From NCBI GenBank assembly GCA_938010655.1, contig CALLVA010000184.1, positions 1-34,306 on the forward strand: a DNA stretch of 34,306 bases, given 5' to 3'. The DNA is from an uncultured Parvularculaceae bacterium. Lineage in GTDB: Bacteria; Pseudomonadota; Alphaproteobacteria; Caulobacterales; Parvularculaceae. This document shows positions 707 to 31,880 of this stretch, in pieces. The stretch's first letter is position 1. The number at the start of each line of letters is the position of its first letter. The notes beneath the pieces are model-generated. The model saw only the letters and a program-made list of their open reading frames with translations. It made no database searches and was not told where the DNA came from. The position numbers and the translations under genes were made by a program.

Positions 707-2003
707 TTTTATAGAAAAGATATTGTTCAAAACTATTGTTTTGACATGGGTCTTCTATCTATTCGGCGCTTTATATGTTGTCGGCCCAGTCTTAGGGTGG
801 AGCGTGGCTGGTATTGCTTTTGGCTCTTTTTACCTTGGCGACAAGGCGATCAAAGCTTCGAAGATGTATAATGATATTCCGATCGGCGTATGGATTTGGA
901 CAATTTCTATGCTTGGTATGTTAGTCGTTCTTTGGATTGGTCATACAACGAATGGGCTTGGCGTCCCAGCTACGATCAAGTCTACCATTGGTTGGGCTAA
1001 GGGGTGGGCTTTGTTTCCTATTTTTATCTTTATAGGGACAACTTTTAAAATTAATCGCGAGGTGATCATTCGCGCATATTGTGTGCTGGGCCTAACTACC
1101 TTGATATTGTCCCCAATATTCTTAGCCGCTCCTTTTATTGGATTGCCAGAAAAACTATATGTTTCTCCTCTAAAAGTCGTTGGCGGGCCGGGCCCTGAAT
1201 TTTTCGCCGTTTATCTCTATACGTTGGATCCTACAGCAGGGGCGCGTTGGCAATTTTTTACACCTTGGTCTCCTTTTGCAGGGCTTATCGGTGTATTATC
1301 AGTTTTAATCTGTGCGGAAGATCGAAATCTCTTTTTTAAAACAGCGGGAATCGCTGCTGGCACAATGATGGTTTTTCTAACCTTTTCAAGAATGAGCTTG
1401 ATTGGCATTGTCGTATGCGCGGGCGTTGGGTATGGCGCTCGGCTGTTAACAAATAAAGTTGCATGGAGCAGCGCGGCTTTGCTGACATCGATCTGCACTT
1501 TAGTCGCGGGAAGTTTGTTCAACGGTGTATTGACAGCGATTGATAAATTTCACGGTGCAAGGGCGTCATCAACCCGTGTAAGGTCTACTCTACAGAGAAT
1601 TGCGCGAGAAAGATGGGCAAATGAAGCGCCATTTTTTGGTCATGGGTCTGTCGAGCCTGGCAGCCATCTGGTTGAATATATGCCCATTGGGAGCCATCAC
1701 ACTTGGTTCGGTTTACTTTTTGTTAAGGGTATCGTCGGTGTTTTCATGCTCGCAATCCCCATGTTATGGACGATTTTCGAAGCATTTATCTATACCGTTG
1801 CATCTCCAAGGGGACGTTTATCCTTAGGCATTATGTTGGCTATATTGTTCTTTTCCTTTGGAGAAAACATGGAAATGCAAGTCTATATGTTTTGGCCAGC
1901 CTTGGTTTTAGTCGGCATCACAATGCGGGAAATTCAGGAAATGCGCGCGCCCGAGGAGCAAATATCAGAGCAATCTGAAGGCCGTCTCCTGGAATCTGCT
2001 TAA
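693..2003 (+). CDS. O-antigen ligase/polymerase-like (Wzy/WaaL family) membrane protein
   Basis: Predicted multi-pass inner-membrane protein of about 436 residues that would polymerise or ligate lipid-linked glycan repeat units on the periplasmic side. Long hydrophobic helices fill most of the sequence. The large periplasmic loop near the C-terminal third carries GHGSVEPGSHLVEYMP followed by GSHHTWFGLLFVKGIVGV, resembling the Wzy_C loop pattern (Gly-rich turn, conserved His, then a helix with G-x-x-G). The frame could extend to a GTG at 675, but the ATG at 693 is preceded by GGGGGA at a good distance and is preferred. The gene overlaps the co-polymerase gene and is separated from the H-NOX gene by 79 bp. 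Ligase and polymerase cannot be told apart from sequence alone; the co-polymerase neighbour favours polymerase. Confidence 0.8.
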   Translation: MQNLNFIEKILFKTIVLTWVFYLFGALYVVGPVLGWSVAGIAFGSFYLGDKAIKASKMYNDIPIGVWIWTISMLGMLVVLWIGHTTNGLGVPATIKSTIGWAKGWALFPIFIFIGTTFKINREVIIRAYCVLGLTTLILSPIFLAAPFIGLPEKLYVSPLKVVGGPGPEFFAVYLYTLDPTAGARWQFFTPWSPFAGLIGVLSVLICAEDRNLFFKTAGIAAGTMMVFLTFSRMSLIGIVVCAGVGYGARLLTNKVAWSSAALLTSICTLVAGSLFNGVLTAIDKFHGARASSTRVRSTLQRIARERWANEAPFFGHGSVEPGSHLVEYMPIGSHHTWFGLLFVKGIVGVFMLAIPMLWTIFEAFIYTVASPRGRLSLGIMLAILFFSFGENMEMQVYMFWPALVLVGITMREIQEMRAPEEQISEQSEGRLLESA

Positions 2004-21902: not shown

Positions 21903-23513
21903 GTGCCAAAGATATACGATTTCGTCGTGGTCGGCGGGGGATCTGCTGGTTGTGTTATGGCCAGTCGCCTATCAGAAAATCCAAAATTACAAGTTTGTTT
22001 GCTTGAAGCAGGCAAGCCTGACAAAGATCTGCGTATCCATGTGCCTGGCATGCTTGGGGAGTTGCTGGCGTCGGGCGCGCATGATTGGCACTATTCCACG
22101 ACACCGCAACGGCATTTGAATGGGCGCTCGGTGCGTTGGCCCCGCGGGAAAACAATGGGCGGTTCTTCCAGCGTCAATGCGATGTGTTATCAGCGGGGGG
22201 CTTTATCTGATTATGATGACTGGGCCGCGACGGGCATAAAAGGGTGGAGCGGCCTGGACGCGCTGCATTATTTTAAAAAGTCTGAGAAATATTCTGGCGG
22301 CGCAGATCAATGGCATGGCGACCAAGGGCCTTTGGCGGTAAGCCGCCCTGAAGATTTGCATCCGGCCACACAAAAATTTCTCGTTGCTGCGGCGCAAGCT
22401 GGATATCGCCATGTGCAAGATTTTCATAATGGCAACCGCGAAGGTTTTGGCGCATTTGATACGACTACGGAGAATGGCCGACGTTGTTCGGCGGCAAAAG
22501 CCTATCTCTCACAAGAGGTTCAAGAACGGCCTAATCTAACCATTGAAACGGGTGCGATGGTGACATCGATTATCCTCGACGGGAAGCGCGCGGCCGGTGT
22601 GGTCTTTAAACAAAATGGCTCCGAGCGGCGCGTGGCGGTTTCACGAGAAGTGATTTTATCTGGCGGCACGATCAATACGCCGCAATTAATGTTATTATCG
22701 GGCATAGGCCCAGCGTCGCATTTAAAAGATGTGGGCATTAAGACGGTGGTGGATTTGCCTGGTGTTGGCGAAAATCTGCAGGATCATGTTGATGTCGCGC
22801 TCCAGATGAATACGCGCAAAGGCAGCGCGATTGGCTATACCCCAACGGGACTAGCGCAAATTGCGGGGTCATTGGTCCAATATGCGGTGAGCCGAAAAGG
22901 CATTATGGCATCGAATTTGGCGGAAGGCTGCGGGTTTTCCAAGAGCCGCGCTGGCGTTTCAAAACCAGATATTCAATTTCACTTCTTGCCCGGCATGTCA
23001 GATGATCATGGTAAGGAGCGCTTTATTGGAGAACAGGGAGTAACGTTACACGCCTGTTGTCTTTACCCAAAATCCAGAGGCACTATTCGGTTGAATTCCA
23101 AGAATCCATTTGACCAACCTGCGATCGATCCAAATTATCTTTCTCACGAAGAAGATTGGGACGTTTTAATCGCGGGATGCGAACAAGCTTATCAAATTAT
23201 GCATCAACCTGCCTTTAAAGATATTCGCAAAGGTATGCGTATGCCGCTAGATCAACCTCAAACCAAAGAGGGATGGCGCGGGATTATCCGGTCACGCGCG
23301 GATACGATTTATCATCCTGTTGGGACATGCAAAATGGGGCCGCAAGTGGATGAAATGTCTGTGACGAATAATGCTGGGCGTGTGCATCACATGAAGGGCT
23401 TACGCGTTGTGGATGCGTCATTGATGCCAAAATTGATTGGTGGCAATACTAATGCACCAACCATTATGATGGCCGAAAAAATCGTCACTCATATGATGTC
23501 GCAATTACAATAG
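21903..23513 (+). CDS. GMC-family FAD-dependent oxidoreductase (choline/alcohol dehydrogenase-like)
   Basis: A 536-residue flavoprotein oxidising an alcohol group. The N-terminal FAD site is [18 protein letters not shown] with ...LLEAG; GMC signature 1 is around [13 protein letters not shown], signature 2 is [18 protein letters not shown], and the C-terminal catalytic His-Asn pair sits in [10 protein letters not shown] and [14 protein letters not shown]. It has no signal sequence. Length and motifs fit choline dehydrogenase (BetA) and medium-chain alcohol dehydrogenase (AlkJ) equally; no betaine or alkane genes adjoin to decide. The GTG start follows GAGGGG. The last 9 bp overlap the convergent radC gene. 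Confidence 0.93.
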
Positions 23514-24269
23514 ACCTAAGCTTTTAAAGCTTACATGTTGTCCGCGCCCAATGATCAAATGGTCATGCACTTTTACGCCGAGAGCGGTTGCTGCTGAGAC
23601 GATTTGATTGGTCATGTCGATATCAGCGCGGCTTGGGGTTGGGTCGCCTGAGGGGTGATTATGCACAAGAATGATCGAGGTCGCGTTTAAGACCAGAGCG
23701 CGTTTAATCACTTCTCTTGGATAAACAGGCGTGTGATTGACTGTGCCGGTTTGTTGTTTTTCGTCCGCAATGATCACATTTTTATTATCCAGAAACAGAA
23801 TTCTGAATTGTTCAATTTGTTCCGTTGCCATAGCAGCGCGGCAATAGGCGAGAAGGTCCGCCCACGATGTAACGACTTGTTTGCCGAGCACATTATCTTG
23901 CGCCAGTTTAATGCCTGCGGCTTGCACAATTTTAAGTTCAGTGGCAACGCCTTGGGAAACTCCTTTAATTTCTAAAAGCCTTTCCAGCGGCGCGCCCAAC
24001 ACATCGGCGAAAGTGCCAAAAACGCTGATCAATTCTTTGGCAAGCGGCTTCACATCTCTTCTTGGAATGGCGCGGAACAATAAGAGTTCTAGCAATTCAT
24101 AATCTTGCACGCCGTCTAGGCCGGCTTTGCAAAACCTTTGGCGCAACCGTTCGCGGTGTCCTGCATTGATATTTTTTGGCTTTGTAGGTGTCTGCGCCGG
24201 AATGGATTCGGTGTTGCCAATTTGTTCGGCGTCCGCAATCTTTTCGAATTTCAAACTTGGCTCACGCAC
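23505..24269 (-). CDS. radC: RadC family JAB/MPN-domain protein
   Basis: RadC (UPF0758) protein of about 254 residues. A basic N-terminal extension precedes helix-hairpin-helix-like segments ([34 protein letters not shown]). The C-terminal JAMM metal-binding site is complete: upstream Glu plus [16 protein letters not shown]. Despite the name, a role in DNA repair is not proven for this family. The GTG at 24269 has AGAGG at good spacing; a TTG six bases upstream is a possible alternative. It lies 11 bp downstream of map on the same strand, an order common in alphaproteobacteria. The stop region overlaps the GMC gene end to end. Confidence 0.93.
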
Positions 24270-24280
24270 GGGCAACCTCT

Positions 24281-29243: not shown

Positions 29244-30431
29244 ATGGCTCAAACTTGGCATATGGACGTTATTATTCTCGGCGCTGGCGCGGCGGGATTA
29301 TTTTGTGCGGCGGAAGCTGCAAAGCGCGGACGGCAGGTTTTGGTGCTCGACCACGCAGATAAAATCGGGGAAAAAATCCGAATTTCCGGCGGGGGGCGCT
29401 GTAATTTCACCAATATTGATACGAAGCCAGAGAATTTTCTGTCCGAAAATCCCCGCTTTTGTATCTCTGCTTTAAAGCGTTTTTCGCCCCAAGATTTCAT
29501 TGATCAAGTCGATCAGGCTGGCATTGCATGGCATGAAAAAAAACTCGGCCAGCTTTTTTGCGATGGTAAGGCGACCCAAATTGTCGACATGCTGATCCAA
29601 AATGCCAAAAAGGCCGGGGTGACGCTTCAAACTGGGACAGCGATTGATCAAGTCACCAAAACGGCAGATGGTTTTGAAGTTATGACCCGCGCTGGTCTGG
29701 CCAAAGCGCGACAATTAATTGTTGCGACAGGCGGGAAATCCATTCCCAAAATCGGGGCGACAGGGCTGGGTTATCAAATTGCCACACAATTCGGATTGCC
29801 TCTCATAGAGCCGCGCCCCGGCTTGGTGCCATTAACGTTTGAGGGCGCCGCCAAAGAGCAAGCTTCCGCCTTGTCCGGTCTGAGTGTTGAAGCGGTTGTT
29901 CGCGCTGGAAAAGCAGCTTTTCAAGAAGGGTTTCTTTTCACCCATCGCGGATTATCTGGCCCCAGTATCCTACAAATTTCGTCCTATTGGCGAGAAGGAC
30001 AAACGATCGAAGTTGATCTTAGTCCGCAAACGGACATTTATGAAAGTTTGCGTTCTCAAAGACAACAATCGGGCCGCGTCGCTATTCAAACGGCCTTGTC
30101 GGAAATGCTGCCGAAAAGATTAGCGCAATCTGTTACAGAGGCTGAAGGGTGGAAGGGCAATCTGGCAGATTGGTCTGATAAAAAACTGAAAGCCTTAGCT
30201 GCGCGATTGCATCAATGGCAGGTTCTGCCCGCCGGGTCAGAAGGCTATCGCACAGCGGAAGTCACTCTTGGGGGCGTGGATACAAAAAGCCTCAATTCTA
30301 AAACCATGGCCGCAAAGGACGTTCCCGGATTATATTTTATCGGCGAAGTTGTGGATGTCACAGGTTGGCTCGGCGGATATAATTTTCAATGGGCATGGGC
30401 CAGTGGCTACGCAGCGGCGCATGCGGTTTAA
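29244..30431 (+). CDS. HI0933-family NAD(P)/FAD flavoprotein (BaiN/RdsA-like)
   Basis: A 395-residue flavoprotein of the HI0933/YhiN group. The FAD-binding start VIILGAGAAGLFCAAEAAK is followed by ISGGGRCNFTN, LIVATGGKSIPKIGATGLGY and the C-terminal YFIGEVVDVTGWLGGYNFQWAW signature, each in its normal position. The reaction is not settled; members include bile-acid reductases and uncharacterised oxidoreductases. Either the ATG at 29244 or the one at 29262 may be used, as neither has a clear ribosome site. The first few hundred bases also encode other-frame open reading which I regard as shadow. Confidence 0.92.
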   Translation: MAQTWHMDVIILGAGAAGLFCAAEAAKRGRQVLVLDHADKIGEKIRISGGGRCNFTNIDTKPENFLSENPRFCISALKRFSPQDFIDQVDQAGIAWHEKKLGQLFCDGKATQIVDMLIQNAKKAGVTLQTGTAIDQVTKTADGFEVMTRAGLAKARQLIVATGGKSIPKIGATGLGYQIATQFGLPLIEPRPGLVPLTFEGAAKEQASALSGLSVEAVVRAGKAAFQEGFLFTHRGLSGPSILQISSYWREGQTIEVDLSPQTDIYESLRSQRQQSGRVAIQTALSEMLPKRLAQSVTEAEGWKGNLADWSDKKLKALAARLHQWQVLPAGSEGYRTAEVTLGGVDTKSLNSKTMAAKDVPGLYFIGEVVDVTGWLGGYNFQWAWASGYAAAHAV

Positions 30432-30512
30432 ACAGCGCTCGGCCTTTATTCGCAATGTTCTCAATATGTCCCGTTTTATCCCCGTCTAAAAAGCGTGTGA
30501 TAAGATGCAAGC

Positions 30513-30752
30513 ATACCCGCTCACTGGGAGGCCTTTGGATATCCGGCCAATGGGGAGTGGGGGATGTATGCCGAACGGGGACGCTAGGATGGTTTACTAA
30601 CGTTCGGTCGTGCTTCAGAGTTCGGGTATAAATGACCCGCTGAAGCGTTGCAAAATACAGGGCGCAGGCCGTCATTTTGGCGATCTTGCATTTGCAATAG
30701 AAGGTCACGGCCAGCTTCAATGAAAGTTTGCGCCCACCCTCCCGACGTTTTT
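30513..30752 (+). ncRNA. Candidate structured RNA of unknown class
   Basis: Inside a 462-bp gap between two convergent genes lies a heavily paired element. An outer stem GGGAGG (30526-30531) / CCTCCC (30738-30743) encloses: CCGAACG (30571-30577) / CGTTCGG (30601-30607); a 12-bp hairpin GCTTCAG-CGGGT / ACCCG-CTGAAGC (30612-30646, AGTT bulge, 7-nt loop); and a three-way junction closed by GGGCGCA (30660-30666) / TGCGCCC (30729-30735), with arms GGCCGT / ACGGCC (30667-30712, containing GATC/GGTC and TTGC-ATTT-GCAA) and AGCTT / AAGTT (30713-30728). The junction has no unpaired bases. Several pairs are G.U on the plus strand and would be A.C mismatches on the other, so plus is favoured. A TTTTT run follows (30748-30752) and a weak TAAGAT box precedes it (30501-30506). 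I see no hallmarks of tmRNA, RNase P, 6S or SRP RNA. End points are approximate. Confidence 0.6.
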
Positions 30753-30893
30753 CAACATTAGTGCAAGCTAGTGGGATTTTATGCTGTTTAAAATTATCAT
30801 GCTTAGAATCTGGTATCGATGCTGAGCGTATTAAAAAACCGCCCAGCAGAAATCACCATATTTGCGCTACACTTAATCGATGTAGAGATAGAC
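30753..30893. other. Rest of the convergent intergenic region; no gene seen
   Basis: A+T-rich spacer between the candidate RNA and the end of the nitronate monooxygenase gene. It contains a small inverted repeat CTACA (30867-30871) / TGTAG (30881-30885) and a palindrome GACTTAAGTC (30891-30900) over the monooxygenase stop codon, neither with a proper T-run for a terminator. Confidence 0.4.
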
Positions 30894-31880
30894 TTAAGTC
30901 GCCAAGGCTTTTCTCGCGGCGTGATAGTCCCGGGCCATTCTGGCAATCATATCACCAGCGGGTTCAATCTTATCGACCGACCCAATGCCTTGGCCAGAAC
31001 CCCAAATGTCTTTCCAGGCTTTCGCGTCGCTATTGCCCCCTGAGCCAAAACTCATTTTGCTGGGGTCTGATTCTGGAAGATTAGCCGGGTCGAGGCCAGC
31101 ATCCACAATGGATTTTGCCAGATAATTCCCGTGTACCCCTGTAAATAAGTTTGTATACACAATATCTTCCATACTGCCTTCAACAATGCCTTGCTTATAT
31201 CCATCGGTCGCATTGGCTTCTTGTGCCGCAATGAAGGCAGAGCCAATATAGCCTGCATCTGCGCCAAGTGCTTTGGCTGCCAAGACGCCGCGGCCTGTGG
31301 CGATGGAGCCGGAGAGGAGGAGGGGTCCATCAAACCATTCTCTAATTTCCTGAATCAGCGGAATGGGCGAAAGCGTACCGGCGTGGCCGCCCGCGCCTGC
31401 GGCAACAGCGATTAATCCGTCTGCGCCTTTTTCGATCGCCTTTCGCGCAAATTTATTATTGATAATATCGTGCAATACAATGCCGCCATAAGAGTGAATG
31501 GCTTCATTGACATCTTCGCGCGCGCCCAGCGACGTAATCACTACAGGCACCTTATGTTTGACGCATGCTTCAAGGTCATGTTGCAAACGATCATTTGAGC
31601 GATGCACGATTTGATTGACCGCAAAGGGAGCTGCTTTTTGCGTTGGGTTCTGCGCGTTATGATCATCAATTGCTTCTTTGATCTCGGTCAGCCATTCATC
31701 CAGCTTTTCCGCCGGACGTGCATTCAGCGCCGGGAAAGACCCAATAATCCCTGCCTTACATTGGGCAATAACCAATTGCGGGTTGGAGACAATGAACATC
31801 GGCGCTGCAACAGCGGGCAGGGCCATATCAGCAATATAGGCGTCGAAAATTTCGCGGGCTTTTGGGTTGGCAGACGTCAT
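30894..31880 (-). CDS. Nitronate monooxygenase family FMN protein
   Basis: A 328-residue TIM-barrel flavoenzyme of the 2-nitropropane dioxygenase/nitronate monooxygenase family, which oxidises nitronates such as propionate-3-nitronate. The order is PAVAAPMFIVSNPQLV, GIIGSFPALNARP, FAVNQIVHRSN, GADGLIAVAAGAGGHAG (with the GGHAG catalytic His loop), LLLSGSIATGRGVLAAKALGAD and IGSAFIAAQEA. These are the usual FMN-phosphate and active-site motifs. AGGAG lies at good spacing before the ATG. Convergent with the flavoprotein gene across the structured region; 72 bp downstream of the prepilin peptidase gene on the same strand. Confidence 0.92.
   Translation of the reverse strand: MTSANPKAREIFDAYIADMALPAVAAPMFIVSNPQLVIAQCKAGIIGSFPALNARPAEKLDEWLTEIKEAIDDHNAQNPTQKAAPFAVNQIVHRSNDRLQHDLEACVKHKVPVVITSLGAREDVNEAIHSYGGIVLHDIINNKFARKAIEKGADGLIAVAAGAGGHAGTLSPIPLIQEIREWFDGPLLLSGSIATGRGVLAAKALGADAGYIGSAFIAAQEANATDGYKQGIVEGSMEDIVYTNLFTGVHGNYLAKSIVDAGLDPANLPESDPSKMSFGSGGNSDAKAWKDIWGSGQGIGSVDKIEPAGDMIARMARDYHAARKALAT

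Follow-up and report, generated by a model that had tools for sequence, protein, structure and literature searches.

A dispersed multicopy family of predicted structured non-coding RNAs in Parvularculaceae

Introduction

The window (the whole stretch of DNA analysed here, 34,306 nucleotides long) carries an intergenic region in which a set of nested stems had been noticed. Does this region encode an RNA, and if it does, what kind of RNA is it? The original prediction placed an elaborate structured RNA at 30513–30752, transcribed from the plus strand as an independent gene that lacks the hallmarks of the common housekeeping RNAs and may be undescribed.

Results

The window copy and its surroundings

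The window copy of the structured RNA (30515–30745, plus strand) is flanked by two convergent genes. The neighbour on the 5′ side (29244–30431, plus strand) encodes a flavoprotein of the TIGR00275 family, whereas the best NCBIfam relative of the 3′-side neighbour (30894–31880, minus strand) is FabK, with a score under the FabK cutoff.

30515..30745, plus strand: structured RNA, its core running from P1 as far as the 3′ strand of the pseudoknot; covariance model match of 85 bits, architecture common to the full-length copies
30748..30752, plus strand: run of five T, possible transcript 3′ end of the window copy, from the sequence

The plus strand of the window copy folds with −92.9 kcal/mol (z = −2.0; 4 of 200 shuffles were equal or better), the minus strand more weakly (−80.2, z = −1.5). 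As this folding energy is unimpressive alone, the case rests on comparative evidence. No tRNA or tmRNA was found at 30513–30752, and the terminator scan recognised no canonical terminator in the window copy. Rfam 15 gave no match at gathering level and none at E values up to 10 in 30400–30900, which agrees with the suggestion that the RNA is of an undescribed kind. Six paralogous loci gave no Rfam 15 match at E values up to 1.

A dispersed family in two genera

DNA search with the window copy yielded six weak matches elsewhere in its own genome, most of them near contig ends, and these six copies, used as DNA queries, matched further places. R1, a covariance model built on the 5′ domain, matched 19 places in the genome of the window and two in a second genus within the same bacterial family. 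A second covariance model (R2), built from 16 copies, matched 19 places in the window's genome (G000), five in G012, three in G018 and two in G004; a later DNA search added two partial places in G012 (C104 and C167). The copy number is at least 20 in the window's genome, contig-end halves included, and 2–7 in each of the three sister-genus genomes (G004, G012, G018). The window's own assembly, an alphaproteobacterial MAG, breaks at many of the RNA copies.

R2 found no match in the other 58 genomes of the family. Among 398 genomes sampled from the order and 385 from the class, it matched none beyond those named. A pattern combining the promoter-like box with P1 matched four named GTDB contigs, all labelled ‘MAG: Parvularculaceae bacterium’. 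The best false match of R2 scored 17.9 bits in ~0.67 Mb of viral DNA; the listed copies scored 29–101 bits. The plasmid collection, searched with copy C203, and viral contigs, searched with two specific patterns, gave no match. A 14-mer pattern listed 80 loci in viral contigs, none of which was backed by the covariance model, and a short BLAST match to the window DNA in G021 was discarded because it sits in apparent coding sequence. A literature search found no paper on non-coding RNA of Parvularculaceae.

Judged from sequence comparison, the locus belongs to a family of predicted non-coding RNA genes, ~200–250 nt long, that is dispersed in many copies, previously unlisted and without Rfam match. 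The original prediction was right about an independent, structured plus-strand gene, but not about a single one. The window copy shares the full architecture with the other full-length copies and is the most diverged member; the family could be discovered from this one diverged copy by reading raw sequence.

Secondary structure of the family

The MAFFT alignment of all 5′ domains put P2 wrongly, and an alignment based on the covariance model (A5) was used. The following helices are referred to below.

30516..30522, plus strand: P1 5′ strand, pairs with 30555–30561; 7 bp, all cells paired (100%), double changes at 4 of 7 pairs
30555..30561, plus strand: P1 3′ strand, pairs with 30516–30522; covariation
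30531..30533, plus strand: P1b 5′ strand, pairs with 30545–30547; 95.8% paired, 3 of 3 pairs double-changed
30545..30547, plus strand: P1b 3′ strand, pairs with 30531–30533; covariation
30570..30577, plus strand: P2 5′ strand, pairs with 30601–30608; helix 93.6% paired, 7 of 14 pairs double-changed
30601..30608, plus strand: P2 3′ strand, pairs with 30570–30577; covariation
30612..30646, plus strand: P3 variable arm, 30612–30618/30640–30646 and 30623–30627/30635–30639; from the window fold
30660..30735, plus strand: P4, outer stem GGGCGCA (30660–30666)/TGCGCCC (30729–30735)

A5 was fitted to the model structure, so its pairing counts favour that structure: 95.8% of 380 cells are paired (30–47% in slid controls), both-sided changes occur at 14 of 24 pairs, and 50 cells carry a both-sided compensatory change vs 14.3 in shuffles. 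The slid controls and the letters of P1 itself leave little doubt on the fold despite this bias; P1 appears as CCCGCTC/GAGTGGG, CCTAATC/GATTAGG, CCTGATC/GATCAGG and CCTGACC/GGTTAGG. For the 5′ domain as modelled (P1, P1b and P2), covariation amounts to proof at the level of sequence.

All 22 copies compared keep the seven base pairs of the outer P4 stem, which has four versions: GGGCGCG/CGCGCCC, GGGCGCA/TGCGCCC, GGGTGCG/CGCACCC and GGGTGCA/TGCACCC. Most copies have an unpaired C/U-rich P4 loop. P3 is longer, branched and variable in sequence in other copies, the segment between P2 and P4 measuring 34–89 nt; compensation is visible between paralogues also here (GCCTG-ATGCAA-CAGGC vs GCTCG-ATGCAA-CGAGC). 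The 5′ domain measures 95, 92 or 91 nt. Here and in the P3 segment there are length differences that are not multiples of three, so a reading frame is not kept, and together with the stem compensation they rule out a protein-coding gene.

The counted pairs contain 51 G·U cells vs one A·C cell, an asymmetry which means that pairing is kept only in the plus-strand transcript, as the original prediction had it. One of the pairs it named in this connection, G30570·T30608, turned out to be the closing pair of P2 (G·U in nine copies, G-C in seven). Substitutions among the homologues preserve the stems by compensatory change: of the stems seen at 30513–30752, P1, P1b and P2 are backed by covariation in 16 copies and outer P4 is intact throughout. 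The predicted fold holds for these elements; its three-way junction without unpaired bases and its inner P4 pairs are peculiar to the fold of the window copy, the other copies not sharing them. The pseudoknot, palindromic loop, promoter-like box and multicopy family described here had not been part of the prediction. Taken together, a real structured plus-strand RNA is almost certain.

Some copies carry insertions. Copies C74 and C150 of the window's genome (L012 and L015, ~40–240) share one additional domain, an insertion in P4; it contains TAGAAGGCCACGGC, which resembles TAGAAGGTCACGGCC of the window's own P4. In the G004 copy C243 (L060, ~1590–1740, minus strand) an insertion of ~110 bp splits the P1 loop.

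A predicted pseudoknot closes the fold

The comparison of copies showed a predicted architecture of four hairpin arms (P1–P4), closed by a pseudoknot in which the 3′ end pairs with the P1 loop.

30525..30531, plus strand: pseudoknot 5′ strand TGGGAGG, within the P1 loop, pairs with 30738–30744
30738..30744, plus strand: pseudoknot 3′ strand CCTCCCG, pairs with 30525–30531

The mean duplex energy of loop and tail partners taken from the same copy was −7.4 kcal/mol. When partners were swapped between subfamilies the mean was −6.15, with 3 of 500 swaps as low as own partners, and shuffles gave −4.1, with 0 of 200 as low. G30531 is shared by the last pseudoknot base pair and P1b.

The apical loop of P1 is palindromic in most lineages

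The tip of P1 carries a self-complementary sequence.

30537..30544, plus strand: apical palindrome GGATATCC, candidate kissing-loop site; palindrome in 13 of 14 lineages

The loop reads GGATCC, GGTACC, GGATATCC, GGACGTCC, GGTATACC or GTCGAC. With one representative of each lineage, 13 of 14 have a loop palindrome of 6–10 nt, the sequences differing, vs a mean of 1.4 and a maximum of 6 in shuffles; the loop segment was picked after inspection of the loops, and the lineages share ancestry. P4 loops, taken for comparison, contained a palindrome in 2 of 12. The palindrome is missing from subfamily B2 (five copies) and from the single copy C84. A palindrome of 6 nt is unable to fold on itself, and its natural reading is pairing between two molecules. 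Because of the post-hoc choice of segment, the shared ancestry and the B2 and C84 exceptions we regard the palindrome as a strong lead, not as proof; to judge by the loop sequences, homodimer formation by loop–loop kissing at this site has about an even chance of being real.

A promoter-like region precedes the copies

Two boxes stand upstream of P1.

30476..30484, plus strand: TTATCCCCG box at the −35 place of the promoter-like region, 17 nt before the −10-like box
30501..30506, plus strand: TAAGAT, −10-like box, from the alignment of upstream regions

Almost every intact copy, in either genus, has TTATCCC(C/G) in this position; in C31 it reads TTATACCC. The motif is followed after ~17 nt by a −10-like box, which in other copies is mostly TATACT or TACACT, also TACAAT, and stands ~8 nt ahead of P1. 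The conserved consensus is TTATCCCC-N17-TAYACT. The pattern TTATCCCC-N15..19-TANANT has 19 sites in the genome vs 0–1 in the reversed control. Most of them precede RNA copies; some of the others precede ORFs or tRNA-like sequence. The consensus scan found no standard TTGACA/TATAAT sigma-70 promoter, and the −35 place is in this sense unusual. The RNA very probably has a transcript of its own, and the copies, sharing one conserved promoter-like region, are probably co-regulated. The window copy combines a weak −10 box (TAAGAT) with an inner P4 from which the C/U-rich loop is missing, and might therefore be decaying or specialised.

The box also occurs in other settings. In C91 and C134 of the window's genome (L100, L101) the same TTATCCCC..TATACT box is followed by another well-folding intergenic repeat of ~280 nt, which R2 did not recognise; this is possibly a second RNA family sharing the promoter. 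In C146 (L099, 168–420) the box precedes a small uncharacterised ORF, not this RNA. A CTCAAC..GTTGAG inverted repeat lies upstream of that box and a similar CTCAA..TTGAG before the box of RNA copy C69, which suggests that the two may have a regulator in common. A TTATCCCC-type box was also seen ahead of a lysozyme-like ORF in two sister-genus genomes (L083, L086).

Genomic setting and spread of the copies

The copies are intergenic; most have convergent neighbours or lie at the 3′ end of a gene. Their neighbours, assigned by eye from translated ORFs, differ among copies: greA, rplI, era, hisD, RadC, fliG and others. At the 3′ side of RadC the RNA is present in G004 and absent in G012, and the RadC gene of the window (23505–24275) has no RNA copy behind it. 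Copy positions are not syntenic, so the family moves or is moved.

Copies of subfamily A are ~80–100% identical in pairwise matches and have a REP-rich 5′ flank of ~300 nt in common. What is conserved from one genus to the other is confined to the promoter-like box and the RNA. REP-like palindromes (GTAGGGCGGGT..ACCCGCCCTAC) stand beside many RNA copies. In C158 of the window's genome (L021/L104) a gene for a RAYT (Y1) transposase adjoins an RNA copy together with such palindromes. RAYT (PF01797) was detected in the window's genome only, and not in G004, G012 or G018. Family expansion in the window's genome coincides with REP palindromes and the RAYT transposase; our guess is that the copies hitch-hiked there with the REP/RAYT system.

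Other routes were looked for. The best inverted matches at the ends of the copies were 7–11 nt long, about shuffle level, and differed in sequence between copies; terminal inverted repeats not having been found, a MITE was rejected. The four genomes contained no RVT_1 reverse transcriptase (controls positive in 3 of 14), which speaks against a retron msr/msd or a group II intron, and no TnpB (Cas12f1-like Zn ribbon; controls positive in 6 of 14, own MAG 78.5% complete), which speaks against a TnpB omega RNA. The IscB RRXRR domain had no match in the four genomes, and the positive control gave none either.

Discussion

What is the role of this RNA? There are two serious readings: a trans-acting RNA and a selfish element. 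According to the former, the RNA would be transcribed from its own conserved promoter, two molecules would pair through the palindromic loop at the P1 tip to form a kissing-loop homodimer, and the RNA would act in trans, its probable partners being a protein or mRNAs bound at the unpaired, C/U-rich loop of P4, while gene copies spread in the genome. The trans-acting step is the weakest, and the dimer step is a lead. We put a trans-acting function, as opposed to a purely selfish element, only just short of an even chance; the whole chain, that of an own-promoter, probably dimerising, trans-acting family spreading within genomes, is more tentative and somewhat improbable in full. A non-autonomous mobile element whose structure serves its own spread without host benefit, here carried with the REPs by RAYT, is possible, if on balance doubtful. 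The at least 20 copies in one genome vs 2–7 in the sister genus, the pairwise similarity and shared REP-rich flank of subfamily A, the non-syntenic positions as seen behind RadC and the RAYT gene adjoining C158 all speak for it, and the narrow range of two genera and the lineage-specific copy numbers also fit an element with no host function. Against it, the low-copy genomes without detected RAYT keep promoter, pseudoknot and pairings, the unit conserved between genera is just promoter and RNA, and neither terminal inverted repeats nor a reverse transcriptase was found.

The position of most copies where genes converge or end, and the terminator-like hairpins with T runs after some of them, could also be explained by a cis-acting gene-end element (a bidirectional terminator, transcript stabiliser or insulator) resembling large REP/BIME clusters. 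We think this improbable: a terminator would not need a promoter-like box or a plus-strand-specific pseudoknotted fold, the G·U vs A·C asymmetry argues against it, and the scan recognised no terminator in the window copy. An origin as a nuclease-associated guide or scaffold RNA (IscB/HEARO, TnpB omega RNA), or as a retron or group II intron relic, would fit a multicopy, structured and pseudoknotted RNA, as many such relics are; however, neither the region nor its paralogues matched Rfam, no RVT_1 or Cas12f1/TnpB domain was found (nor RRXRR, for which there was no positive control), the copies have their own promoter-like box, and the self-paired pseudoknot strand at the end leaves no flank-derived guide, which makes this origin very improbable. 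A chance structure in an intergenic repeat, for which the window-copy folding energy of only z = −2.0 might speak, has a negligible probability and is refuted by the covariation counts, both the compensatory cells and the pairing relative to slid controls.

It is rather unlikely that the trans-acting family amounts to a new bacterial RNA class, in which a homodimer with an evolving palindrome and a dedicated family promoter has a trans function and multiplies together with its promoter as one unit. If it did, the differing subfamily palindromes would stop pairing between subfamilies. The family raises two testable questions: whether small multicopy bacterial RNAs act as homodimers, and how RNA genes that bring no transposase or reverse transcriptase with them are able to spread.

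Comparison with known systems

HDV-like ribozymes start P1 with G and have the catalytic C in the J4/2 joiner. The family resembles them in helix order, in its 7-bp P1 and in the P1 loop, where a 3-bp hairpin lies together with a strand that forms a pseudoknot with the 3′ end, but its P1 starts with C-G and it has extra arms. Only 1–2 nt separate P4 from the 3′ pseudoknot strand in the copies, leaving no room for a joiner with the HDV catalytic C, and an HDV-like ribozyme was rejected on these grounds. In retroviral dimer initiation loops, too, an apical palindrome keeps self-complementarity rather than sequence; these RNAs are unrelated, and the kissing-loop analogy concerns the loop principle only.

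Like REP/BIME sequences with their RAYT, the family consists of dispersed intergenic copies beside REP-type palindromes, one of them adjoined by a RAYT gene. REPs are short simple palindromes, whereas the unit of the family is a promoter-like box with a multi-helix RNA. It occurs also in genomes lacking a detected RAYT (G004, G012, G018), and it was not classed as a REP/RAYT element.

‘Cuckoo’-type alphaproteobacterial sRNAs have CCUCCUCCC anti-SD loops; the P4 loops vary between copies and have no common CCUCCUCCC, which excluded this type. Multicopy trans-encoded sRNAs of Alphaproteobacteria are among the RNAs described in surveys of Rhizobiales (PMC2873474, PMC3927594). The family is like these in being intergenic, in several copies per genome and of the same bacterial class, with a C/U-rich loop in some copies. 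It differs from them in its size of ~200–250 nt, its 3′-end-to-loop pseudoknot, its self-complementary loop and the missing Rfam match, and no homology to them was found. GOLLD, ROOL and OLE are presented in PMC12286853 as ornate RNAs forming RNA-only oligomers. The family shares with them that it is a structured bacterial non-coding RNA of little-known function, for which a multimer is predicted; it is much shorter, multicopy, dispersed and of another fold, its oligomers being a prediction only. To the known RNAs it adds a structurally supported family without Rfam match, and it unites two uncommon features: multiplication to some twenty copies within a small genome, and preservation of a loop's self-complementarity, not of its sequence.
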